DNA of 64,000 nt from Carya illinoinensis (taxonomy: Eukaryota; Streptophyta; Magnoliopsida; Fagales; Juglandaceae). The position numbers and the translations under genes were made by a program. Numbering within the stretch: position 1 is the first letter of the stretch; every line of letters begins with the position of its first letter. Positions 7,247 through 59,060 of the stretch are shown here, piece by piece. The DNA is taken from positions 2,480,001 through 2,544,000 of the forward strand of contig NC_056765.1 in the NCBI RefSeq assembly GCF_018687715.1. The letters are read 5' to 3'. The notes beneath the pieces were generated by a model, which ran no database searches, had not been told where the DNA came from, and was given only the letters and a program-made list of their open reading frames with translations.

Positions 7247-7778
7247 TGTAACAAACCCCTTGTTTACTGGAAAATAGGCTCTTTTGAGGAGAGCACCTCC
7301 AAGTAGAAATGATAGGTAGAGAGGAAAAAGAGGAAATTAGGTTTGCATTACTTTTCAAGTGGAAAACTACAGACCTGGCGGCACCTTCTATAAGGTCACC
7401 ATGCTTACACTCAAAAACGTAAATGGGCCATGGGCCACTAACTGGACTGGACTTTAAATTAAAGCTGACTTACAAACATCAAATAAAACACAAACTCTCA
7501 AATTAACATAGCTTCTGGCTGAATAGGACCCTTAATTCCTCAACCCAGCTGGACTTTAAACAACCCATGCCCAAGGCCCAGCCCGGCTCAATTCACTTCC
7601 TAACACGTGCATTGACCCTTGATCGAAGCTTCTTCCTTCAATTTTGCGCAGCACTTCATGTCAGACTTAGACTTAGGTTGCGAAACACATCCTCTTTTCT
7701 GTCGCCGCTACCTTCTATCTTCCATGATTCTCCACATTCTCCACACGTTGCCTCTAGCTTCCTTGGCCGGTTGTTACA
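7247..7778 (-). repeat. 3' LTR of the chromodomain Gypsy
   Basis: 532 bp; in plus orientation starts TGTAACAAACCCC and ends GGTTGTTACA. The copy at 12425-12947 is closely similar. The adjoining minus-strand polypurine tract is rc of CTCCATTCCCCATTAA at 7779-7794. Confidence 0.9.
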
Positions 7779-7790
7779 CTCCATTCCCCA

Positions 7791-8261
7791 TTAAAAAACC
7801 TTGCCCTCTAGGTGGGAAAAATCCTCTTGAAGCTTGAAATAGACCTCCCAAGTCGCATTTGCAGCATCCTGGCCATGCCACTTCACGAGCAGCTCGTCCC
7901 TTGCTTGGTTCCCAGCCTTGACCATGCGCCTCCTTATCACTTCCTTTGGTTCTGGATGGAGTACACCGTGAACGTCCACAGGTGGCAGTGACGGAATAGC
8001 TACTATTTTCGAACCAATTTTTTTCTTCAACTGGGATACGTGGAAGGTGGGGTCTATGCGTGAGGATGGAGGAAGATCCAAGGTATAAGCCATGCCCCCC
8101 ACCTTTTTCAGCACTCGATATGGCCTGAAATACCTAGGAGCTAACTTCAGGTCCCTTTTATGGGACACCGTCGTTTGATGGTATGGCTGCAATCTGAGGT
8201 ATACTAGATCTCCTTCTTCAAATTGTTGTTCCCTTCTTCTAAGATCTGTATATTTTTTCAT
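7791..8261 (-). pseudogene. Gypsy integrase C-terminus and chromodomain
   Basis: A 156-codon open piece of pol. The first half resembles the integrase C-terminal region (VYLRLQPYHQTTV, LKLAPRYFRPYRVLKKVG). The second half is a chromodomain-like stretch (ELLVKWHGQDAANATWE). In chromoviruses this domain steers integration toward particular chromatin. It is separated from the integrase core by stops between 8262 and 8447, so it is part of a broken polyprotein rather than a gene of its own. Confidence 0.85.
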
Positions 8262-8447
8262 CCTGTTTTAAGCACTTTGTAAATTTTGTTTGAGAATGTT
8301 GAGCATTTGGTCTCTATTGTACAAGACTTGGTCCACTGATTCCATTCGTGAGGTGCCAAGGATGTAGTCCATTACACGGGGTGGGGGGTACCCATAGAGA
8401 GCCTCATAGGGTGTGACCTTAGTTGACAGATGCTGAGTGGAATTGTA

Positions 8448-9512
8448 CTACCACTCAGCTAGAGGTATCCACACTGACCAGTCCTTCGGTCGGTCTCCCG
8501 TGAAACATCGCAAGTAATTCTCCACTGTTTTGTTGACAACCTCCAATTGTCCATTAGTCTGAGGATGGTATGATGTGCGCATAGCCATCTGGACACCCTG
8601 TAACTTGAATAATTCTTGCCAAAATTGACTTGTGAACGTAGTATCCCTGTCGGACACTATGGATTGGGGCATTCCGTGTAACTTAAAAATGTTCTTCATA
8701 AATGAATCCGCGACTGTTTTGGCTGTGTATTGGTGCTTTAAGGGTACAAAATGACCATACTTAGTCAAGCGGTCAACCACCAACCACAAACTGTTGTAAC
8801 CATGGGAGTTAGGTAAGCCCTCAATAAAATCCATGGATATCTGGGTCCATGGTTGAGAGGGTATAGGCAAGGGTTGCAGCAACCCATTTGGAAAAAAATT
8901 ATCAGCTTTGACCCTTTGGCACAGGTCACATGCCCTAATGAACTGTTTGAGATCCCTCTTCATCCCAGGCCAATAAAAGTCTCTTCTCATCCTATGGGCA
9001 AATTTATTGTAGCCTGGATGTCCCCCCCACGGGCTGCTGGGGGTTAGCTCCAGTAGCTTGTTTTTAAACTCCACTTGATCAGGGATATACAATCTGTTCT
9101 TGTATAATAACAGCCCATCTCTAACTGAGTACTTGGGCCCCATTTTGCCATCTGAACAATTCTGTAACAAGTTTTTCACGTGCACATGACTCTCATACGC
9201 CGCTTTCAATTCGTCCACCCATTCTACACTAGGGAAGGTGATTAGCATCAGTGTCTCTTCTTCCCACTTATCCTTCCTTGATAAGGCATCCGCTGCCCAG
9301 TTTTCAGCCCCTCGCTTGTACTCCACAATAAAATCATAACCTAGGGGCTTGGTGATCCACCTTTGTTGCATAGGGGTGCCCACTTTTTGGTCCATCAAAT
9401 GTTTGAGACTTTGTTGGTCTGTCTTCACTACAAAGGTTCTTCCCAACAAGTACGACCTCCATTTCATGACCACTAAAACAAGAGCAAACAGTTCCTTCTC
9501 ATAGGTTGACAT
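8448..9512 (-). pseudogene. Gypsy RNase H and integrase core
   Basis: A 354-codon piece. The N-terminus carries RNase H sequence (STYEKELFALVLVV, KTDQQSLKHL). Next come the H2C2 zinc region of integrase (HPGYNKFAHRMRRDFYWPGM, then CDLCQRVK) and the catalytic core with DFIEGLP, SDRDTTF and HPQTNGQLEVV. The DDE residues are visible. The frame ends within the integrase near 8448; RNase H sequence upstream is in another frame. Confidence 0.87.
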
Positions 9513-9705
9513 AGAGAGATCTTCCCTTCAATGCTTGACTGAAAAATGCAATTGGTTGCCCCCTTTGCATCAAAACTGCCCCTATCGCTGTTCCCGATGC
9601 ATCACACTCAATTGTGAATGGCAGTGTGAAGTCGTGCAATGCTAACACCGGTGGTTGTGTAACCACCTCCTTAAGCTTGCAAAAGGCCTCTTTAGGATCT
9701 GCAGA

Positions 9706-10425
9706 CTATAGAAACCCATCTTTTTTCATACTAGTCAGCGAGGCTACAATCTCCCCATAGCCTTTTATAAACCTACGATAGTAGCCTGTTAAACCCAAGA
9801 ACCCTCTCAATGCCTTTAGGGATGTTGGTAGGGGCCACTCCACCATCACCTTTAGCTTGTCGGGATCCGCCTTGACTCCCATTGCTGAAATCACATGGCC
9901 TAGGTAGGCCACTTCCTTGCAACCAAAGCAGCACTTTGATTTCTTTGCAAACAACTGGTGTTGTTTTAGAGTCTCTAAAGCAACTCTTAGGTGGTTGACA
10001 TGCTCCCTTTTAGACTTGCTGTAAACAAGAATATCGTCAAAGAAAACAAGAATAAATTTTCTTAGAAAGGGCCGAAATACCTCATTCATGAGACTTTGAA
10101 ATATGGATGGAGCGTTGGTAATCCCAAAAGGCATTACTAAGAACTCATAGTGTCCCTCATGAGTCTTAAAAGTAGTTTTTGGCACATCATCGTGTTTAAC
10201 CCAAATTTGGTGGTAGCCGGACCTCAAATCCAGCTTTGAGAAAAGTACTGATCCATGCAACTCATCCATTAATTCTTCCACCACAGGAATAGGGAACTTA
10301 TCCTTGATAGTAATGCTGTTCAAGCCCCTGTAATCAACACACAACCGCCACGTTCCATTTGCCTTCCTCACCAATAACACCGGAGACGAGTAGGGGCTTC
10401 GGCTTGGCCTGATTACCCCTGTCAT
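9706..10425 (-). pseudogene. Gypsy reverse transcriptase
   Basis: A 239-codon piece with the canonical RT blocks: WRLCVDYRGLN, KLDLRSGYHQI, VMPFGITNAPS, the active site FFDDILVYS, and GFLGLTGYYRRFI at the thumb. Catalytic Asp residues are present. Length and spacing fit the RT domain of Ty3/Gypsy. It is separated from the protease piece by stops at 10426-10632. Confidence 0.9.
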
Positions 10426-10632
10426 TAGTAACTCCTGAACAATTTTCTCAATCTCATCTTTTTGGTAATAAGGGTAACGGTATGGTCGTATGGAAATGGG
10501 CTTGGTCTCGGGTATTAGGTTGATAGCGTGGTCGTGGGTACGGGGGGGTGGAAGGCCTTTGGGTTCAAAAAATACTTCATCAAACTGCTGTAACAGATTT
10601 TTTATAGGGGCTGGAACTTCATTTTTGGCCCG

Positions 10633-11487
10633 CTATTCCAGAATGTTTTCATCTTCTAACAATTGTAAAATTATCCCCTTATTTTCCAGCTTGTTTAGTT
10701 TAGTCAAAGGACCCTCCTCAATCATTTTAGCTGCTGTTAGGCCTTGCAACTTAACCTCCTGACCCCCATAGGAAAACTGCATGGTCAGCATTTCGAAATC
10801 CCATAGCACCTTCCCAAGCTCTTGAAGCCATTTAATACCCAACACCATGTCACAACCAGCCAATACCAACACTAGTAATTCCAAGAGAAAAGTAGTCCCT
10901 TGAATTACAACCCTTACTCCCTTGCAACTTCCTTCACTAACAATGAATTCCCCATTAGCAAGTCTCACTTTCACAGGCTCTTGATTTTTCCATGGTATGT
11001 TGGTTGTTTTGAGTATAGCAGGATCTAAGAAGTTGTGGGTGGAGCCCGTATCAATCAGTATGGTAATCCATTGATAAATTTCTGGTTTGGTTTTGGTGGT
11101 GCATAGGTCTAAGGTTGGGATGGGTTCTTCTTTGGTTTCACAAGGTTCTTCCTCAACTTTCCCACTCTTCTCACTGTCCAATGCTATATCATCCAACATG
11201 TACAATCTTGGATTTTGACATTTATGGCCCGGTGCCCATTTAGAGTCACAGTGATAGCATAGACCCTTTTCTCTCCCGTCTTTCATTTGGCTCTGGTTTA
11301 TTTTGTGGATGGTCAGATTTGGTTTGAGTTTGGAGTTCTCGGTTGGATGGGGTTGTGGGTTTTTTAAGATTCCAGGGGCGGGTGAATATGTTAGGCTGGG
11401 TCTTGGGTATTTCTTGGAGATGTTTGCTTTTTCTTCTTGGATTCTCACCAAGCCAAAGGCTGAGATCAGGTTTGTGGGATTAAACAT
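10633..11487 (-). pseudogene. Gypsy zinc knuckle and aspartic protease
   Basis: A 284-codon piece with a nucleic-acid-binding knuckle (CYHCDSKWAPGHKC) near residue 78 and a retropepsin active site ILIDTGSTHNF near residue 145. It belongs between gag (11490-11915) and RT (9706-10425) in the same element. Confidence 0.87.
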
Positions 11488-18736: not shown

Positions 18737-19387
18737 TAGGGGTGTAAAAAAAATCGATAAACCGGTAAACTGGACAGGACAAGACCAAACCGGTGGGATT
18801 GGTCCAGTCCCGAGTTTGATTCGGTCTGGTACCGGTTTTATTTTCTTAAAACCAGTCAAAATCGGTCCAATTCCGATTTTTCTTTTTCTAAAACCGGACC
18901 GAACCAGTTTATATATATATATTTTTTATAATTTTTTATATTGTATATAATATTTATATATAATATATAACTATATATAAAATAGTTTTGTATTATATGA
19001 TAAATTACTAATTAATATAATATTAAATTTTAAAATCTTATATCATTTTGTTTATTATATTAATAGTTATATTAATACTATATCAATATATATTATAATA
19101 TACTATAATATATCATTATAGTCTATAATACAATTATAATATATATTATAATATACTACAATATATTATCACTATAGTATTATATACTATAATATGCTAT
19201 ATTATATAATATATTATATAAGTACATTAAAACCAATAAAACTGGACTGAACCAAACTAGAAGCCGGTAAAATCGGAGTACCGGTTTAGGAGGATAACCG
19301 GTGCTTAATCAGTTTTGAAAAATGCAAAACTGGTGCATACCGGTTCGGTCCTAAATTTTATCTAAAACCGGACCGGTTACACCCCTA
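18737..19387. mobile_element. Non-autonomous hAT element, 651 bp, TSD CTTATATG
   Basis: It begins TAGGGGTGTAA and ends TTACACCCCTA (perfect 11-bp terminal inverted repeats), and is flanked by CTTATATG at 18729-18736 and 19388-19395. An 8-bp TSD with TAGGGGTG ends is the hAT signature. Next to the ends are CCGGT / ACCGG-rich arms; the core is almost pure A+T. It has no coding capacity. It lies inside the Copia gag zinc knuckle and split it. Confidence 0.95.
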
Positions 19388-31510: not shown

Positions 31511-31928
31511 TGTTAAAGTATCTACTGCAACCACATCAGATCCCTCAAGCTCCCAGCCCTATAGATTGTGCACACAATGAGTGTCCAAGAAGTACCATTA
31601 CCAATATGGCAAGAGCACCTCTTCAAGATCATGACAGCAAGCCTCCAAACAGCAAGCCTTGCAAATATGGAAGCTCACACTTAAGGCAAATCTTTGCAAG
31701 AATCATGGATCCTACAAAATCTGCTATATAACTCTGTAAGCCCATTGATTCAGCAAATCAATCTTATTTATGTTAATTGTATCATTTACTTCCTTGTATA
31801 GAAAATAATGTGCATCTCTCAAGAGTGTATCTTTTGATTCTTTTATTGACTTGTACAAACTATATAATGAATATACAATATACTAGTTTGATGAGTTAGC
31901 CAAAACCATTTTTCTATGATTTTGTTCA
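31511..31928 (+). repeat. 5' LTR of Copia 3
   Basis: Starts TGTTAAAGTATCTACTGC and ends GATTTTGTTCA. TGGTATCAGAGC (31929-31940) follows directly. Confidence 0.94.
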
Positions 31929-32837: not shown

Positions 32838-33658
32838 AAATTTGTGGAAAAACCAGCCATACATCTATTGATTGCTTTCAAAGGACGGATTATTCCTATC
32901 AAGGAAGGCATCCTCCTTCTCAGCTTGCTCCCATGGTGGCTCACACCAACCAAGCATTGGATGAACAACCTTGGTATGTTGATAGTGGTGCCAATGTGCA
33001 CATTACCAATGACTTGGAGAACTTGACCATCCAGCAACCTTTTCAAGGTCATGACACAATTACAGTTGGCGATGGAGTTGGAATTCCTATCCAAAACACT
33101 GGTTCTTCCATCATTCACTCATCTACATCTCGTTTTCATCTTAAAAATGTGTTGCATTGTCCACAGGCCGCGGCCAACTTGCTTTCTATTAACAAATTCT
33201 GTTTTGATAACAATTGCTATTTTTTCCTAACCTCTTCTCGTTTCTTTTTGAAGGACAATCAGACCAGAGCCATACTCTTGGAAGGCAAAGTTGAGAATGG
33301 GTTGTACCCCTTGCGGTTTCAAGAATCTTTATTAAAAAATAAGCATGTTTTTACTGCCTTTATTGGATTAAAGACCACTCTTCCTATGTGGCATTTTAGA
33401 CTAGGACATTCCTCATTTGTACTAGTCTCTCAAATAATAAAAGATTATCATTTACCACTCTCTCATGCAAATGATAATAAGAAGTGATTTTGTGATTCAT
33501 GTCAGCTTGGTAAAACTAAAAAGCTTCCATTTTCTACCTCTCACAGGATCTCTACTGCTCCTTTAGAACTAATTCATAAAGATTTATGGACCTCTCCTAT
33601 CTCTTATGTTAGTGGCTGCAAGTACTATATAATATTTGTGGATGACTTTTCACGCCAC
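32838..33658 (+). pseudogene. Copia 3 zinc knuckle, protease and start of integrase
   Basis: The knuckle CQICGKTSHTSIDC is followed by protease WYVDSGANVHIT, pre-integrase MWHFRLGHSSF and the first integrase strand (DLWTSPISYVSG, IIFVDDFSRH). A TGA lies at 33485. The reading breaks at CACGCCAC, the hAT target, and resumes at 41005. Confidence 0.87.
33651..33658. repeat. 8-bp TSD of hAT element 2, left copy
   Basis: CACGCCAC, identical to 40997-41004 on the other side of the element. Confidence 0.95.
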
Positions 33659-33668
33659 TAGGGGTGAG

Positions 33669-33822
33669 TTCGGTCCGGTCCGGGGAGGTTTTGCGGACCG
33701 GACCGGAACTATTCGGTCCAGGGTTTTCCCACCCTGGACCGGACCGAACTCCATCAGGACCGGTCCGGTCCGGTCCTATTCGGTCCGGTCCGGTCCGGTC
33801 GGTCCATTCGGTCCAAGGTTGA
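33669..33822. repeat. GGTCC-repeat arm, left
   Basis: Tandem GGTCC/GGACC pentamers with interruptions. The right arm (40815-40986) has the same motifs in opposite orientation. It is GC-rich between AT-rich sequences. Confidence 0.9.
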
Positions 33823-33930
33823 CTTTTTTTTTTATTTTTTTATCTAATGACATTTTTTTTTAATATTTATGTAATTATATTGTAATATATTTAATATATA
33901 TACATATAGTATTATATATATATATATATA

Positions 33931-33987
33931 TTAGTAATATGCTAATACTATTAGTCTATTAGTAATAATACTATAACTAATAAATAT
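33931..33987. repeat. 57-bp direct repeat flanking the virus, left copy
   Basis: Starts TTAGTAATATGCTAATACTA and is identical base for base to 39276-39332. A TA-rich tract precedes both copies with small indels, so the similarity extends further left. Confidence 0.93.
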
Positions 33988-33988
33988 T

Positions 33989-36900
33989 TATCTTACACAA
34001 GAACAAAGAATAAGAATATTAAGTGCCTATAAGCATGATGAAAATCTGCAGGAGATTAAGACAGAAGATGGTCAACCTATAGAAGATGCTGTTAATACTC
34101 TAATATTTATATTAACAAAACATTTTGTAGGTGATCCTTCCCAATTTAAAGAAAGAACTAGTGATTTATTAATCAATTTAAGATGTCCTAGATTATCTGA
34201 TTTTAGATGGTATAAAGATGTTTTTCTAACTAAAGTTATGATCAGAGATGATTGCCAACAACCATACTGGAAGGAAAAGTTCATAGCCGGACTTCCATAT
34301 TACTTCGCCCAAAAGGTACGAGAATCTTTAGTAAAATCAGATGGTACTATTGATTTTATTAATCTTACGTATGGAGATATAATATCTTCTATTAATAGAA
34401 CTGGTCTGACTATGTGTAATGATATAAGATTAAAAAAGCAAATGGAAAAAGAAAAGAAATTTGCTACAAAAGAATTAGGTACCTTTTGTGAACAGTTTGG
34501 TTATTCTCCATTATTAGCTCCTTCTACAAGACACAAAAAAGGAAAAAGAATTTATAAAACTTATCCAACTAAGAAAAGAAATTATAAGAAACCAGTAAAG
34601 AATACAAAAAAGTTTAATAAAAAGAAAAAACAAATTGTATGTTATAAATGTGGAAAGGTTGGACATTATGCATCAAATTGTAAGGTTAAAAAAGAAATTA
34701 ATGAATTAGATATACCTGAAGAAGTAAAAGAAAAATTATTAAATATCTTTATACAATCAAGTGAAGAAGATGAAATTTCTTCAGAAGAAGATGAAATTTA
34801 CCAATTAAAAGAATCAAGTTTTTCAGAACAATCTTCTGATAACAAGTCAGAAGAAGATGAAATTCATGTTCGTAATTGTTTAGATAGAAATAATTGTATC
34901 TGTAATAAAACTATTAACGTATTATCGTCACATGAAAATATTATATTAGAATTAATAGATAAAATTAATAATCCACAAGAAAGAAAAGAATATTTAGAAA
35001 AATTAAAAGATACTTTTAGTAATCCCAAGACTTTTGAACTCAATTCAACCCCCTCATCATATGATTTTATGGAAATAGTAAATAGATTTCAATCAGAAAA
35101 ACAAAATATTACTTTAAAAGATTTACATCAAGAAATTAATGAAATAAAGAAAGAAATTAGAAATTTGAAAGCTTCTAACACCAAACTTGAAGTTTCTAAT
35201 GAACAATTATTACAAGAAATTATACTATTAAAAATAGATAAAAATAATGACACTCATAAAAAAGAGCAAGGAGAAAGCTCAGTAAAAATTACAAAAGAAG
35301 AATCAGATAATTTTATAAACATACTTAATAAAATGAATTTTCAAAAATGGTATACTGAAGTAACTATTTCCATTAATGAAGAATTCTCTTTTTCTGCAAT
35401 AGCCTTATTAGATACAGGTGCAGATTTAAACTGCATACAAGAAGGAATAATACCCTCTAAATATTTTGAAAAAACAAAAGAGACATTATCTCAAGCTAAT
35501 GGAGCAAAATTAAATATAAATTATAAATTATCAAATGCACATATATGTAATAATGGAATTTGCTTTAAAACAACATTCATTCTAGTAAAAAATATCAACA
35601 CCAAAGTAATATTAGGAAACCCATTTCTTGCTTTACTTTACCCTTTCTCTGTAACAGAAGAAGGAATTTCTACTAAAATATTAGGAAAAGAAATTCAATT
35701 TAAATTTTTATTCCCTCCAGTCTCAAGAGAGATTAATTCCTTAAAAGAAGCATCATTGACTAAAGAAATTAATTTTTTAACAAAAGTCAAAATCAAAAGA
35801 AAAGAAAAACAAATAAATTTCTTAAAACAAGAATTAAAATACAAAAGAATTGAAGAACAATTAAAAGATCCTTTATTAATCCAAAAAATTAATAATTTCA
35901 AAAATATAATTGAAAACGAAGTATGCTCTAATTTACCTAATGCTTTTTGGAGTAGAAAACAACATATAGTCGAATTACCTTATGAAAAAGAATTCTCTGA
36001 AAAGAATATTCCTACTAAGGCCAGACCCATTCAAATGAATAAAGAATTATTAGAATTCTGTAAACAAGAAATTAATGATCTATTAACTAAAGGACTTATT
36101 AGAAAGAGCAAATCACCATGGAGCTGTGCTGCTTTTTATGTACAAAAACAAGCAGAATTAGAAAGAGGTGTTCCTAGATTAGTTATAAATTATAAGCCTT
36201 TAAATAAAGTTTTACAATGGATTAGATACCCTATTCCTAATAAAAAAGATTTATTATCCCGACTTTATGCTGCTACTATATTTTCAAAATTTGACATGAA
36301 AAGCGGATTTTGGCAAATCCAGATTGCTGAAAAAGATAGATACAAAACTGCATTTACAGTCCCTTTTGGACATTATGAATGGAATGTTATGCCTTTCGGA
36401 TTAAAAAATGCTCCTAGTGAATTTCAAAATATTATGAACGAAATATGTACACCTTTCACCCATTTTTCTATAGTTTATATAGATGATGTATTAATATTCT
36501 CTTCATCAATTGAACAACATTGGAAACATTTAAATACCTTTGTTCAAATCATTAAACAAAATGGATTAGTAGTTTCATCATCTAAAGTCAAATTATTCCA
36601 AGACAAGATTAGATTTCTTGGACATGATATTTATCAAGGAACTATTACCCCAATAAGTAGGGCCATAGAATTTGCTAATAAATTCCCTGATGAAATAAAA
36701 GATAAGCAACAACTACAAAGATTTCTAGGAAGTTTAAATTATGTTGCTGATTTTTATCAAGCACTTAGACCTTTATGTGAACCATTATTCAAGAGATTAA
36801 AAAAGAATCCACCTCCATGGACAGAGGAACATACAAATATTATAAAACAAATAAAGGCCCATGTTAAGAAATTACCATGCTTAGGACTCCCATCACCTGA

Positions 36901-37324
36901 TGCCTTTAAAATTGTTGAAACAGATGCCTCTGATCTTGGTTATGGAGGAATTTTGAAACAAAAATTATCAGATGGAAAAGAACAGATTACTCGATTTCAT
37001 TCAGGATGCTGGAATCCTGCTCAAAAGAATTACAGTACTATTAAAAAAGAAATTTTAGCTATTGTATTATGCATTTCTAAATTTCAAGATGATCTTTTGA
37101 ATCAAAAGTTTTTACTTAGAATTGATTGCAAATCAGCCAAGGAAGTTTTAGTAAAAGATGTTAAAAACTTGGCTGCTAAACAAATTTTTGCAAGATGGCA
37201 AGCTATTTTAAGTATTTTTGATTTTGATATTGAGCATATTAAAGGAGATTCTAATTCTCTTCCTGATTTTCTATCCCGAGAATTCTTACAGGGAAAATCA
37301 TGTCTTCCTCAAAGTCCAGAGTGA
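33989..37324 (+). CDS. Caulimovirid polyprotein, 5'-truncated (coat-protease-RT-RNase H)
   Basis: Open from 33989 to TGA 37322-37324, about 1,110 codons; the first in-frame Met I list is 34238. Numbering from that Met: a coat-like region with WKEKFIAGLPYYFAQKVR (about 9-26), a basic Lys-rich tract, a CX2CX4HX4C zinc knuckle at 135-148, acidic EED repeats (about 175-210), a coiled-coil-like region (about 300-345), protease DTG at 392-394, RT with catalytic YIDD (Asp 749/750), and RNase H with Asp 896 and later acidic residues. Codons are strongly A/T-ended, unlike the neighbouring Copia. The N-terminal movement and coat portions are missing, so it is a fragment despite its intact catalytic motifs. 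Confidence 0.9.
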   Translation, partial: YLTQEQRIRILSAYKHDENLQEIKTEDGQPIEDAVNTLIFILTKHFVGDPSQFKERTSDLLINLRCPRLSDFRWYKDVFLTKVMIRDDCQQPYWKEKFIAGLPYYFAQKVRESLVKSDGTIDFINLTYGDIISSINRTGLTMCNDIRLKKQMEKEKKFATKELGTFCEQFGYSPLLAPSTRHKKGKRIYKTYPTKKRNYKKPVKNTKKFNKKKKQIVCYKCGKVGHYASNCKVKKEINELDIPEEVKEKLLNIFIQSSEEDEISSEEDEIYQLKESSFSEQSSDNKSEEDEIHVRNCLDRNNCICNKTINVLSSHENIILELIDKINNPQERKEYLEKLKDTFSNPKTFELNSTPSSYDFMEIVNRFQSEKQNITLKDLHQEINEIKKEIRNLKASNTKLEVSNEQLLQEIILLKIDKNNDTHKKEQGESSVKITKEESDNFINILNKMNFQKWYTEVTISINEEFSFSAIALLDTGADLNCIQEGIIPSKYFEKTKETLSQANGAKLNINYKLSNAHICNNGICFKTTFILVKNINTKVILGNPFLALLYPFSVTEEGISTKILGKEIQFKFLFPPVSREINSLKEASLTKEINFLTKVKIKRKEKQINFLKQELKYKRIEEQLKDPLLIQKINNFKNIIENEVCSNLPNAFWSRKQHIVELPYEKEFSEKNIPTKARPIQMNKELLEFCKQEINDLLTKGLIRKSKSPWSCAAFYVQKQAELERGVPRLVINYKPLNKVLQWIRYPIPNKKDLLSRLYAATIFSKFDMKSGFWQIQIAEKDRYKTAFTVPFGHYEWNVMPFGLKNAPSEFQNIMNEICTPFTHFSIVYIDDVLIFSSSIEQHWKHLNTFVQIIKQNGLVVSSSKVKLFQDKIRFLGHDIYQGTITPISRAIEFANKFPDEIKDKQQLQRFLGSLNYVADFYQALRPLCEPLFKRLKKNPPPWTEEHTNIIKQIKAHVKKLPCLGLPSPDAFKIVETDASDLGYGGILKQKLSDGKEQITRFHSGCWNPAQKNYSTIKKEILAIVLCISKFQDDLLNQKFLLRIDCKSAKEVLVKDVKNLAAKQIFARWQAILSIFDFDIEHIKGDSNSLPDFLSREFLQGKSCLPQSPE

Positions 37325-38631
37325 AAACCAAATCCTCCTATGCCAAATCACCTTCTCCTCCTTATCCTTCACCCTGTCCTTCCGTCACACCAAAACCCTA
37401 TACAGTACTAGGGACATTACCACAAAACATTAGGCCATCCTATAATCCATTTTCACCATTATCCTCTTCAAAATTACCCACATACTCAAAAGCTGTTTCT
37501 TCTACTAGTTCTTCTCCTTCTCAAATTATTAATCCTCCACCTTTATCTCAGCCCTCTGTAACTCCTATTATCTTTAAATCCCATTGGCATCCAGTCTTTC
37601 CTATTGAATCAGAATTACAGCATCTATCTGAACCTCAAAAATTACTTGACGCTTTTCTATTACCAGATTGGCATTATGTTCCCCAGAACATTACCAAGAC
37701 TCAGAACTTTTATGAATTTATTTTAGTAGACACTGATTCTATTATTATCTCTGAAATCCCTTGCTCTTTACAATCTCAACCTTCTCCACCTGCAACTCCG
37801 ATCATTGCATTCCACAAAGTTACTATTAAACAGGTTCTTACCTTAGAACAGTGGGGAAAAAGCCCGTACTTGACGAGAAGATTTTCTCAGCCATATGATC
37901 CTCCTTATTTCGATTACTACGATTATCAACAAGCATGGAACAAAACGTTCTTACGACAGAATAAGAATTTGCGCCATTCCTGGTTTCTCCATTTTGATAA
38001 ATTACAGGAAATTAAGACTCTACCGCGATGGTTCCTATTATGGTGGAATCAATTTGGACCAGAATCTCTCATTCTTCCTCCACCTCTCCAGGAGAGTCTT
38101 CAGGCTTTCACATTACAGAATGATTGTCCACCTTCATTATCACACTGTTCACCACTTCTCCTTTTCTTTCTTAAAACAAAATTAAATTGGATCATGAAGT
38201 GGGAATATGTCATCAAACCTCATCCTTCTCTCAAAAATATTATGTTCTTGGCCCGCCAAGTCTCTGTAAAATGGTGGGAAAAGTATAATTATGATCATGT
38301 TGTAAAAATGTTCTCAAAAATTACCAAGGCTCCTGAGGTTCTTGTTCAGAGAAGCAGATTCCAAGCTCAATTAGCAACAATTACCAATAAAAAAGACTTG
38401 AAAAAATTAGCAGAAGCAATGTCACAAGTATCAGACAGTGATGAAGAAGAAGACCATCAAGTCAGATTATCTCCAGCACAGCAGACAACATCATCGCCAC
38501 TACAGCAGGCCTCTCCATCCCAACAGGCCTCTCATTCTCATGACAACTCACCATATTATCCCTCACAGATGATGGATTCTCAAGATCCGTATGAATTGGA
38601 ACTGGCAAATTATGACCCTCAGATTATGTAA
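37300..38631 (+). CDS. Caulimovirid ORF2-like protein, 443 aa, function unknown
   Basis: ATG 37300 lies 25 nt before the end of the polyprotein frame, in a different frame. The N-terminal third is rich in Ser, Pro and Tyr. The middle is Trp- and Pro-rich (SHWHPVFP, LPDWHYVPQ, LPRWFLLWWNQFG). The C-terminus is acidic then Gln/Ser-rich (SDSDEEEDHQ). I see no membrane segment, zinc knuckle or known enzyme motif. Position and size fit the uncharacterised second ORF of florendoviruses. Assignment rests on context rather than on sequence recognition. Confidence 0.7.
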   Translation: MSSSKSRVKTKSSYAKSPSPPYPSPCPSVTPKPYTVLGTLPQNIRPSYNPFSPLSSSKLPTYSKAVSSTSSSPSQIINPPPLSQPSVTPIIFKSHWHPVFPIESELQHLSEPQKLLDAFLLPDWHYVPQNITKTQNFYEFILVDTDSIIISEIPCSLQSQPSPPATPIIAFHKVTIKQVLTLEQWGKSPYLTRRFSQPYDPPYFDYYDYQQAWNKTFLRQNKNLRHSWFLHFDKLQEIKTLPRWFLLWWNQFGPESLILPPPLQESLQAFTLQNDCPPSLSHCSPLLLFFLKTKLNWIMKWEYVIKPHPSLKNIMFLARQVSVKWWEKYNYDHVVKMFSKITKAPEVLVQRSRFQAQLATITNKKDLKKLAEAMSQVSDSDEEEDHQVRLSPAQQTTSSPLQQASPSQQASHSHDNSPYYPSQMMDSQDPYELELANYDPQIM

Positions 38632-38836
38632 TTCCAAAAGATTATCGTCCTTTTCTTCCATTATCAGAACACTGTTTAAGATGCTCGTCACTGTTCAAGA
38701 TGCCCGTCAGTCAAGAATCATCCAGCTGTCTAGTTACTGTTTAGCCGCCCATGTTTAATAAATGTAGCCGCCTATTTACTGTGTATGAGTCACTGTACAT
38801 GTCAGTAATATTATTGTAAGGTACTGTTTTGGAGTC

Positions 38837-38844
38837 TATAAATA
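38837..38844 (+). promoter_or_regulatory. TATA box of the pararetroviral promoter
   Basis: TATAAATA in TCTATAAATAGGCAG, 200 nt after the ORF2 stop, at the place of the pregenomic RNA promoter. Transcription would be expected to start about 25-35 bases downstream. Confidence 0.8.
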
Positions 38845-39000
38845 GGCAGTTTGTAAGTGAGGAAAGGCATTCAGAAATTCTCATCTGAAGCCAATCCTAG
38901 TCCCTCGTCACTCTCAAAACTTCTCTCTTGTAAACTCCTTTCCATGTCTCCTGCCTTTCAAACTTCTGAGAATTAATCTCCTTGTAAGTATTATGTTTTC

Positions 39001-39006
39001 AATAAA
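39001..39006 (+). terminator. Poly(A) signal of the pararetroviral RNA
   Basis: AATAAA about 160 nt downstream of the TATA box and upstream of the primer site. Pararetroviral transcripts pass this signal once and end at it the second time, giving a terminally redundant RNA. Confidence 0.75.
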
Positions 39007-39144
39007 ATTGAGTTTATCTTATTTTGATCTTTACTTTTATTCATGCCTTTACTTCCTGCACTTCATTTATTTGTTTATATTCTATAATCTATTAATATAT
39101 CTATTATATTAGCTATTATATATATATATCCTGGTATACGTAGT

Positions 39145-39156
39145 TGGTATCAGAGC
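39145..39156 (+). other. tRNA-Met primer binding site of the caulimovirid
   Basis: TGGTATCAGAGC is the exact match to the plant initiator-tRNA primer site. Here it follows a poly(A) signal and is not next to an LTR, as expected for Caulimoviridae. It marks the conventional genome start, so the integrated segment is circularly permuted. Confidence 0.88.
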
Positions 39157-39275
39157 CAACGGTTATTATATATATATATAGTTATTATTATATTTATTTT
39201 ATTTTATTATATATATATATAGTTATTATTATATATATACTATATATATATATAGTATACTATTATATATATATA

Positions 39276-39332
39276 TTAGTAATATGCTAATACTATTAGT
39301 CTATTAGTAATAATACTATAACTAATAAATAT
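39276..39332. repeat. 57-bp direct repeat flanking the virus, right copy
   Basis: Identical to 33931-33987. The following sequence is AT-rich host (hAT core). Confidence 0.93.
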
Positions 39333-40814
39333 ATATAATAATAACTATACTATAACTAATAACTATATATAATAATAGTAATAGTGATAACTATATATGT
39401 AACTATATGTAATAGTAATACTAATAACTAATACTATTAATCTATTAGTACTAATAACTATACTAGTATTAATAACTAATAACTATACTAGTATTAATAA
39501 CTATAACTAATAACTATATGTAATGATAGTAATACTATATGTAATACTATATTAAATAATAGTAATACTCTTATTACTAATACTCTATGTAGTTATGGTG
39601 ATTTAATACTAACATATTATATATTAAGCTAACTATATTAATACTATTATAAATTTACAAATATATGATATATTATAATTTATTCTATAACTTTTATAAT
39701 ATGTTAATACATTATATACATATATTTTTGATCGGTTATACTAGTACTATATATTATAGTTAATAGTTATACATTAAAGAATATAGTAATACATTGATAC
39801 TAAATATATATAGTTATAGACTTATAATGATTTAGTTATTATGAATTTATGATTAGTATAACTATATAATTGTATTGGTATTAGACTATTAATAATTCAA
39901 TTTGGCTATATTATATTAGTAATATTAGTTATGTTGAATCAATTAGTTAGTATAACTATATTCTACATCATTAATATTAATATAAATATTAGTATTAGTT
40001 ATAACTATATAGCCTATATTAGAATTGAGTTTTAGAGTATATAATAGACTAATAGTATTAGTACAACTATATAAGTATATTGTATAGCTATATATTAGTT
40101 TTAATTATAGTGATTAGTATAATTATATAATAGTAGACTATTAGTATAACTATATATTAGTATTAGTTACTATTATGGTGATTTAGTATATTATAATTTA
40201 TATATTATATTTATACTATAACTCTTATAATATATTAATATATACTAGTACTATATATTATAGTTATATATTAAATAATATAATAATACATTCATACTAA
40301 ATATATATAGTTATATTTCTAGTGATTTAGTTATTAACTTATTATGATTAGTATAACTACCCAAATTATAATAGTATTAGACCATTAATATAGCTATATA
40401 TTAGTAATATTAGTTATGGTAAATCAATGCTTTAGTATAACTATATAAGTATTAACTATAATGATTTTTATATATTCATTAAATATAAGTATAGTGATAT
40501 TTAAATTATATTAATTAAAGTGATAAATATATTATATAGCTATACATAGTATTAATTATAGTGATTAGTATAACTATATAAATTATATAATAGTATATTA
40601 GTATTAATAGTAGACTATTAGTATAGGTCACTATAGCTATTGTTGAAGTATTAGTTATAGTGATTTAGTATAACTATATTAGTATAACTATAGTCTATAT
40701 TAGACTATTAATATTTTTTTATACCATATATAATTATATAATTAATAATTTAATTATATACAACTATTATATCAATAATATATATAAATAATATATATAT
40801 TTTTTTTATTTCTA
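39333..40814. repeat. AT-rich core of hAT element 2
   Basis: 1.5 kb of nearly pure A+T with many variants of AGTATAACTATATA and TTAGTTATAGTGATTTAGTA. No coding frame. The core of the small hAT element (18950-19220) has the same character. Confidence 0.8.
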
Positions 40815-40986
40815 TTCGGTCCGGTCCGGTCCGGTCCGGGGTGAAAAACTCCCGGACCGGGACCGGACCGAATCTTTTCGGTCCCTTTAAAATGGGACCG
40901 GACCGGACCGGACCGAATTGGGTCCGGTCCGGTCCGGTCCAAACAGTGCCGGTCCGGTCAGTTTTGCCGGTCCGGACCGGCCGATG
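40815..40986. repeat. GGTCC-repeat arm, right
   Basis: CGGTCC and GGACCGG pentamer arrays in inverse orientation to 33669-33822, ending at the CTCACCCCTA terminus. Confidence 0.9.
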
Positions 40987-41004
40987 CTCACCCCTACACG
41001 CCAC

Positions 41005-43559: not shown

Positions 43560-43976
43560 TGTTAAAGTATCTACTACAACCACATCAGATCCCTCAAGCT
43601 CTAGCTCTACAGATTGTGCACATAATGAGTGTCCAAGAAGTACCATTACCAATATGGCAAGAGCACCTCTTCAAGATCATGACAGCAAGCCTCCAGATAG
43701 CAAGCCTTGCAAATATGAAAGCTCACACTTAAGGCAAATCTTTGCAAGAATCATGGATCCTACAAAATCTGCTATATAACTCTGTAATCTCATTGATTCA
43801 GCAAATCAATCTTATTTATGTTAATTGTATCATTTGCTTCCTTGTACAGAAAATAATGTGCATCTCTCAAGAGTGTATCTTTTGATTCTTTTATTGACTT
43901 GTACAAACTATATAATGAATATACAATATACTGGTTTGGTGAGTTAGCCAAAACCATTTTTCTATGATTTTGTTCA
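43560..43976 (+). repeat. 3' LTR of Copia 3
   Basis: 417 bp, same ends as the 5' LTR. It is followed by the element's own primer site (TGGCATCAGAGC, one change) and gag start instead of flanking DNA. Confidence 0.93.
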
Positions 43977-44055
43977 TGGCATCAGAGCTGTATTCAGCTC
44001 ACGCTTATACATCCTGCTTCAATGGCTTCTCCAAATACTACTTCTGCTGCTCCTT
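43977..44055 (+). repeat. Stub of a second Copia 3 internal region
   Basis: Nearly identical to 31929-32007, including the primer site and the gag ATG with the ASPNTTSAA codons. It breaks at CTGCTCCTT, after which Gypsy LTR sequence resumes. Confidence 0.9.
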
Positions 44056-57700: not shown

Positions 57701-57708
57701 CAAATCTT

Positions 57709-58516
57709 GCATGTCATGGGTAGGATAGCGTTGAAGCATAAGGTGCTTGTGTAGGAAAAGCAGGGTTGTCAGCCTTAATTCTTCAATGTATTTGCTAGTT
57801 TGTGAATGGTTTCAGCCAATATGATGCAAAATGTTTTGACAAAAGTGCAAACAACAGACTAATATACATACTTGTAGTTGCATGTCATGGGTAGGATAGT
57901 GTTGAAGCATAAGGTGCTTGTGTAGGAAAAGCAGGGGGGTCAGCCTGAATTCTTCAATGTATTTTCTAGTTTGTGAATGGTTTCAGTCAATATGATGCAA
58001 AATGTTTTGACAAAATTACAAACAACAGACTAATATACATACTTGTAGTTGCATGTCATGGGTAGGACAGTGTTGAAGCATAAGGTGCTTGTGTAGGAAA
58101 AGCAAGGGTGTCAGCCTTAATTCTTTAATGTATTTGCTGGTTTGTGAATGGTTTCAGTCAATATGATGCAAAATGTTTTGACAAAATTACAAACAACAGA
58201 CTAATATACATACTTGTAGTTGCATGTCATGGGTAGGATAGTGTTGAAGCATAAGGTGCTTGTGTAGGAAAAGCAGGGGTGTCAGCCTTAATCCTTCAAT
58301 GTATTTGATGGTCTGTGAATGGTTTTAGTCAATATGATGCAAAACGTTTTGACAAAAATACAAACAACAGACTAATATACATACTTGTCGTTGCATGTCA
58401 TAGGTGTTAGCCTTAATTCTTCAATGTATTTGCTGGTTTGTGAATGGTTTAAGTCAATATGATGCAAAATGTTTTGAAAAAAGTGCAAGCAGTAGACTAA
58501 TATACATACTTGTAGT
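57709..58516. repeat. 171-bp tandem repeat, about 4.7 copies
   Basis: Copies start at GCATGTCATGGGTAGG at 57709, 57880, 58052 and 58222, with a fifth, internally deleted copy at 58393. Spacings are 171, 172, 170 and 171. Each has AAGCATAAGGTGCTTGTGTAGG and CAACAGACTAATATACATAC. It has no coding frame. Confidence 0.95.
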
Positions 58517-59060
58517 TACTCAAATATGGTTATGCCCATTATTTCAAATAATAAAATGGACTTAATAGGTACATGCCATTCCATTTAATAGGTACATCAT
58601 GAAACAATTTTTAGAAATAATTTGATGGACCATCTTTAGCTCTATGCAAATATAAGAAGACCCATAAGGAAACCAATCAAGTGAATACTTCTTTTATTTC
58701 CTTTTTAAGCATGCTGTGAGAGATCAAATGTATTGTTTGGTGGTAGCATTTTTCTTCCCAAAAGCTTTGCAGCTAACATATTTTAATCTTTTATGCAGGC
58801 ATGCTCATAATTCAAGCGGAGAACACAAGGAATCTTTCTTCCTTTTTTGCTTTGTAAAAACATCATGCATGCGATGCATGTGTACTTCTAACACGCATGT
58901 GTCCTTGTGGTGGGACTTTTACAAAATGATTTTAGAAAAAGAGACGGAAATTATTGATCCTTTCAAAACTTTTTCTCTTTCCTTCATAAGGTATAAAAGG
59001 TTATAAGTTCTAAATAAAAACATACTCTACAAGTTAAAAGAGAGTTTGCAGGGAAAATCT
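58517..59060. other. Spacer without a recognised gene
   Basis: A 96-codon open frame at 58716-59006 has a CRHAHNS / CMRCMCTSNTHVS stretch but no recognisable domain; I do not call it a gene. Confidence 0.4.

Follow-up and report, generated by a model that had tools for sequence, protein, structure and literature searches.

A truncated pararetrovirus segment, probably captured once and in place, in the TA-rich core of a pecan hAT element

A 64,000-nucleotide stretch of the pecan (Carya illinoinensis) genome (contig NC_056765.1, positions 2,480,001 to 2,544,000 of the forward strand; hereafter the window) holds a 7.3-kb unit in which pararetrovirus DNA lies between the ends of a hAT-type DNA transposon. 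This composite exists and its ends look complete; it is most likely the outcome of one passive capture, at a TA-rich site which by chance was a transposon core. More precisely, we consider it very probable that truncated, most likely florendoviral DNA was captured once, in place, in the TA-rich core of one hAT copy during break repair. The hAT element is itself inserted in a Copia retrotransposon, and the features of the locus (window coordinates, with strand where one applies) are the following.

31511..31928, plus strand: 5' long terminal repeat (LTR) of the host Copia retrotransposon, with TG...CA ends, followed by TGGTATCAGAGC
33651..33658: left copy of the 8-bp target-site duplication (TSD), CACGCCAC, within the Copia integrase frame
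33659..33668, plus strand: left terminal inverted repeat (TIR) of the hAT element, TAGGGGTGAG, perfect against the right TIR
33671..33820: left subterminal arm, with CGGTCC/GGACCG repeats
33821..33987: left TA-rich core of the hAT element, ending in repeat unit D1 (33919-33987)
33988..37324, plus strand: viral open reading frame 1 (ORF1), 5'-truncated, recognised by its open frame and Pfam domains; movement-protein part absent
Within ORF1, plus strand: coat protein (CP) 34148-34468; zinc knuckle 34637-34684; retropepsin 35360-35554; reverse transcriptase (RT) 36167-36631; RNase H 36818-37213
37300..38631, plus strand: viral ORF2, 443 amino acids, function unknown, recognised by database relatives
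38632..39144, plus strand: viral non-coding region, read from the sequence
39145..39156, plus strand: TGGTATCAGAGC, read from the sequence and present too in virus copies L047 and L052
39157..39211, plus strand: start of the viral leader, read from the sequence; the right viral end lies between 39208 and 39211, followed by a TA-rich junction
39212..40796: right TA-rich core of the hAT element, holding repeat unit D2 at 39264-39332
40797..40986: right subterminal arm, with inverted CGGTCC/GGACCG repeats
40987..40996, minus strand: right TIR of the hAT element, the reverse complement of TAGGGGTGAG
40997..41004: right copy of the 8-bp TSD, CACGCCAC
43560..43976, plus strand: 3' LTR of the host Copia element, pairing with the 5' LTR

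A preliminary description of the window, made from the letters alone, had proposed perfect 10-bp TIRs, an 8-bp TSD and inverted GGTCC arms, and these were all borne out. The TIR TAGGGGTGAG occupies 33659-33668, with its reverse complement at 40987-40996; CACGCCAC flanks the pair on both sides, and 22 of the 23 matches to CGGTCCGGTCC (with at most one mismatch) fall inside the two arms of the unit, against an expectation of 0.04 for the whole window. The insert at 33659-40996 splits the integrase of the Copia retrotransposon. When the unit and one copy of the TSD are removed, the integrase frame is regained (...FVDDFSRH/TWFYPLRTK...), and for this reason a hAT-type insertion is well supported. 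The unit thus shows two features of the hAT superfamily: an 8-bp TSD with a frame-restoring empty site, and short TIRs common to a dispersed family, as seen in the left TIRs of its relatives and in 40 scored places that match its right part. The hAT-virus unit is non-autonomous; no transposase frame was found in it. Plant non-autonomous hAT elements and hAT-type miniature inverted-repeat transposable elements (MITEs) have 8-bp TSDs, short TIRs, an AT-rich core and dispersed copies, and lack a transposase frame; the pecan family shares these features. MITEs are typically under ~0.8 kb in size. Unlike the usual MITEs, the pecan element would measure ~2.2 kb when empty (hAT parts and missing core summed), and this copy is loaded with virus.

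The whole window was also scanned for inverted repeats of 10 bp bordered by identical 8-mers, with 20 shuffles in 200-bp blocks as the control. The scan returned 88 matches, mostly (TA)n runs and four in a CA-repeat, whereas the 20 shuffles together gave 4. The other matches with G or C in the TIR were the hAT unit, 18737-19387, 7267-10689 and 39113-40593, the last lying within the TA-rich core. At 18737-19387 lies a second, virus-free hAT-type element of 651 bp, with TIR TAGGGGTGTA, TSD CTTATATG, ACCGG/CGGTC-type arms and a TA-rich core. The match at 7267-10689 has the 10-bp inverted repeat CTGGAAAATA and 8-bp direct flanks CTTGTTTA, and is possibly another DNA transposon, or chance.

To place the unit in its family, the genome (674 Mb, 17 contigs) was searched with the left end plus virus, with the right end plus virus, and with the right 1657 bp of the hAT element; the results given here refer to the best 40 scored of 1577, 1660 and 2831 candidates, respectively. 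In the last of these searches the other places were 88-98% identical to the query, the closest being 98% identical over 1657 bp. Six relatives were opened on their left side, and in 6 of 6 the arm and core were present and virus was absent. Their left TIR was exact in three and carried one mismatch in three, and it was preceded by six different 8-mers. The virus places listed by the searches amount to 49 neighbourhoods on 15 contigs, the window left out, and none of them lies within 20 kb of the other 39 scored hAT places, the closest pair being 422 kb apart. The virus appears to have entered a hAT element that already existed, as the preliminary description had supposed: the same core is found in sister elements with identities of up to 98%, and the six opened on the left side are virus-free at that place.

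Comparison with these sisters also defines what the virus replaced. A perfect 69-bp direct repeat brackets the viral part, with D1 (33919-33987) abutting the left viral edge and D2 (39264-39332) beginning 52 bp past the right one. Both units are present in the virus-free relatives (L077 was read directly, and all six by alignment). In the relatives L078-L080 the core resumes 103-104 bp after D1, and in L077 ~96 bp after it. Relative to the virus-free copies, roughly 95-135 bp of hAT core is missing at the virus; the value is given as a range because TA runs blur the right junction. The event was an insertion combined with a deletion, with no visible target duplication, and the loss of ~95-135 bp of core points to capture by end joining in TA-rich DNA.

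The viral part is 5.22 kb long and extends from 33988 to ~39208-39211, inside the TA-rich hAT core. The preliminary description had reported about 5.3 kb of caulimovirid DNA with viral domains in an AT-rich core; the presence of the virus and its domains was confirmed, with CP, zinc knuckle, retropepsin, RT and RNase H followed by a second ORF without a Pfam family above cut-off, and the size was corrected to the slightly smaller figure. The Pfam scores of ORF1 were 2.8e-11 for the CP (PF22909), 5.5e-23 for RT and 6.1e-26 for RNase H. The segment is 5'-truncated: it begins inside the coat-protein region and extends beyond the primer site at 39145-39156. Protein homology starts at the codon at 33989, which corresponds to residue 698 of a 1750-amino-acid relative that has a movement-protein domain too, and on this comparison ~2.1 kb of the polyprotein frame is missing. 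The RT region had 444 relatives at E <= 0.001; the species named among the 120 listed were plants, and many rows were nameless. ORF2 matched no Pfam family above its cut-off (a weak match to ICA69, E 0.0038, fell below the cut-off of that family) and had 21 database relatives, among which the three species named were plants; the closest, CIPAW_11G040600 of Carya illinoinensis, was 99% identical. A search of a viral contig collection gave 11 pattern matches, none of which was confirmed.

Downstream of ORF2, the viral non-coding region contains what we take to be a TATA-like box (38837-38844) and an AATAAA signal (39001-39006), a promoter-like arrangement, and TGGTATCAGAGC at 39145-39156 is presumably the caulimovirid tRNA-Met primer-binding site. 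The right viral end had been considered to lie at this primer site; this was rejected when copies L047 and L052 were seen to run beyond it, and the end was moved to ~39208-39211. With CP, retropepsin, RT and RNase H in one frame, together with the presumed tRNA-Met primer-site motif, the segment has the marks of Caulimoviridae. According to the available text of PMC10377300, florendoviruses have a two-ORF layout, as does this segment, which is most likely florendoviral.

The searches for the virus elsewhere in the genome indicated that this combination is singular among the scored matches. With the left-junction query (hAT left end plus 373 bp of virus), only the window joined this hAT to virus. 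Among the other 39 scored main rows, 35 started at 33988 and one started 6 bp inside, with 98-100% identity and on many contigs. In the remaining three (L003, L022 and a copy on contig C5) the match continued into TA-rich query sequence; the virus adjoins an inverted piece of viral leader in L003 and other TA-rich DNA in L022 and the C5 copy. No GGTCCGG arms were found in the fetched flank stretches of these three. Upstream of the position of the left viral edge, 20 of 29 fetched loci were viral for nearly the whole 1.5 kb, 7 were partly viral or rearranged, and 2 broke near that edge. With the right-junction query, a full-length match at 100% was again obtained for the window alone; nine other rows ended at 39208. 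At 85-91% identity, fourteen other rows went beyond the viral edge seen in the window and reached query position 637-701. The four that were opened (L049-L052) are surrounded by TA-rich sequence of other kinds: a repeat with AACGTTCGAACGTT-type arms for L049, L050 and L052, and a different hAT-type MITE for L051. The ten unopened rows are all more than 400 kb away from any scored member of this hAT family.

Several further observations were made on these virus copies. By eye, the four virus copies L022, L049, L050 and L052 seem to lie in a single TA-rich repeat; three of them (L049, L050 and L052) have the AACGTTCGAACGTT-type arms next to it, and their virus junctions differ. L009 and L027, on different contigs, have the same apparently non-viral sequence at different viral left edges, and another repeat family may hold several virus copies there. 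In L003, L022 and L032 the viral sequence breaks off within ~5-10 bases of the left viral edge seen in the window, and a purine-rich tract immediately precedes the break. The shared left edge near 33988 looks as if one viral end were preferred; the copies were ranked by match length and are not a fair sample, and no conclusion is drawn from this.

Sequence divergence gave an indication of the order of events. The two Copia LTRs differ at 14 of 417 aligned sites (3.4%), the nearest scored hAT relative differs by 2% (1657 bp), and the nearest virus copies differ by 0.13-0.65%. When the viral part was compared with 29 fetched copies (over 1.0-1.8 kb, gaps not counted), 20 fell in this last range and 9 differed by 1.4-3.1%. 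Arrival of Copia first, then hAT, then virus would fit these values, which are different kinds of divergence. At the 3' end of the Copia element, directly 3' of its 3' LTR (43977-44055), lie a second primer site and the first gag codons, an arrangement that resembles a cut-back tandem LTR-internal-LTR array.

The course of events that we favor is as follows. The hAT element, ~2.2 kb when empty, entered the Copia integrase with an 8-bp target duplication. A chromosome break would then have arisen in its TA-rich tandem core, and non-homologous or microhomology-mediated repair would have joined a viral DNA molecule into the break, with the loss of roughly 95-135 bp. The hAT ends would be passengers, the source of the landing site and not of the virus. 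Integration of florendoviruses into TA repeats via break repair has already been proposed, as the available text of PMC4241990 and PMC10377300 indicates. Some points weigh against capture in place. Because nothing stays behind at the donor site after cut-and-paste transposition, the virus could have been brought into Copia by this same copy; the order of divergences makes that less likely. The comparison covers a single genome; showing the three states (empty Copia, hAT only, hAT plus virus) would take a second. With the best 40 of 1577, 1660 and 2831 candidates scored, a decayed second composite could be missed, and four of the 14 rows extending past the right viral edge were opened. Finally, the repair pathway is deduced from the anatomy of the locus alone.

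One virus copy elsewhere bears on how general such captures might be. L014 (contig C6, near 183 kb) lies within a further hAT-type MITE that is related to the element of 651 bp at 18737-19387; L014, L051 and L059 are stretches of C6 at about 176.7-189.9 kb. The flanks of L014 aligned to the 18737-19387 MITE above all 100 single-base shuffles (left, 105 vs 76; right, 166 vs 86.5). They have in common a 32-bp exact direct repeat beside the virus, which may have been made by the insertion or, like the 69-bp repeat, may be older than it, and the outer left TIR of L014 was looked for and not found. When 13 virus copies including the window were searched for TIRs and TSDs, a hAT-type pair was detected in the window only, and L014 was not picked up. 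Arm motifs were counted in 16 left and 10 right stretches, with 9 copies having both sides, against a background of 0.84 per 800 bp; a clear excess on both sides was seen in two copies only, the window (42 and 48) and L014 (4 and 7), in a sample that is smaller than its nominal size since some "left flank" stretches (at least L006, L007 and L015) are still viral. From these two separate cases it could be argued that TA-rich hAT cores are recurrent traps for florendoviral DNA, and that intact ends make the trapped virus a cargo for hAT transposase, an incipient plant counterpart of Teratorn, a medaka herpesvirus fused to a piggyBac transposon in the available account of PMC5601938. We regard this broader proposal as improbable.

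It is likewise quite unlikely that the virus entered a hAT element elsewhere and that the 7.3-kb unit then jumped into Copia by means of a transposase supplied in trans. Such composite transposition would agree with the two perfect TIRs and the intact TSD. The genome is also rich in hAT dimerisation domains (2712 candidates, of which 150 were scored), and many of them belong to open frames of 711 or 731 amino acids; one such transposon, at C1:37833208-37839137 (L084/L086), ends in TAGGGCTGAGC, one base off the TAGGGGTGAG TIR over ten, with 8-bp flanks ACCCTGTT and ACCCAGTT that agree at 7 of 8 bases. However, the subterminal repeats of this transposon are TCGGA-type and differ from the GGTCC arms, two other fetched transposase loci (L083 and L085) have no matching TIR, and the C1 transposon is at most a candidate autonomous partner of this hAT family. 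Moreover, no sibling composite was found among the scored matches, and the divergences point to a virus far younger than the Copia insertion.

A third explanation, that virus insertion itself created a target-site duplication of ~69 bp through fill-in of a staggered break, has these points in its favor: the direct repeat is perfect, one unit stands at the left viral edge and the other 52 bp past the right one, and when the left flank in the window was compared with the right flanks of 7 other copies, no more than 8-15 bp were shared. Small tandem duplications do arise in mammalian cells by fill-in at breaks with 3' overhangs, according to the available text of PMC8355091. Nevertheless, because the virus-free relatives already hold both units, a target duplication made by integration was rejected; for this locus the explanation is refuted and we give it hardly any weight. 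The idea that the hAT ends form an inverted repeat by chance, and that the unit is no transposon, has a negligible probability and is refuted as well, for although TA runs too yield 10-bp inverted repeats with 8-bp flanks, 40 scored places share the right part, 6 of 6 opened share the left arm, and the empty site in a coding frame is precise.

Taken together, these data favor capture in place. The preliminary description had raised a composite capable of spreading viral DNA, with a passive landing site as its fallback. Spread was not supported: among the scored matches only the window joins hAT and virus, and the proposed check for other copies with the same TIRs and the same internal junctions found none among the best 40 per search. 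The fallback fits best, given the 39 other scored hAT places without a listed virus within 20 kb. It had also been reasoned that unrelated flanks for all virus copies, with the hAT family virus-free elsewhere, would mean a single passive insertion; the outcome came close to this.

As far as the available text of Geering et al. 2014 (PMC4241990) describes them, endogenous florendoviruses insert into TA-rich DNA, where short stretches of sequence are gained or lost; like the pecan segment, they occur in many copies and carry an ORF1 with CP, protease, RT and RNase H domains, followed by an ORF2 whose function is unknown. Their closeness to transposable elements and their capture at TA repeats are in print (PMC4241990 and PMC10377300, in their available portions), and break-repair capture at TA-rich DNA is an already proposed route. 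The pecan locus differs from what is described there (PMC4241990) in that the TA-rich target is an identified hAT core whose empty state is shown by virus-free sisters in the same genome. As in Teratorn, in the available account (PMC5601938), viral DNA is enclosed by the terminal repeats of a DNA transposon. Subtype 1 of Teratorn is present at 30-40 copies per haploid genome, and Teratorn has a transposase of its own and demonstrated transposition (same source), whereas the pecan unit is single among the scored matches, shows no transposase frame and is only partly viral. A Teratorn-like element would be marked by several copies sharing their virus/transposon junctions, and none such appeared among the best 40 scored per search. 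In the open-access literature, searched by title or abstract start, no report of a caulimovirid inside a hAT element or transposon was found, and no open-access paper was found on pecan and Caulimoviridae. Elsewhere in the window, a satellite-like tandem array with a period of ~171 bp, its copies 89-95% identical, was noted at 57707-58517.

This locus offers a close before-and-after picture of pararetrovirus capture, in which the target is a multi-copy transposon with virus-free sisters, and it illustrates that a direct repeat at the flanks of an insert can mimic a target-site duplication. Were composites of this kind ever to be mobilised, viral DNA would acquire a route of spread independent of infection; the locus does not show this, and it makes the possibility testable.

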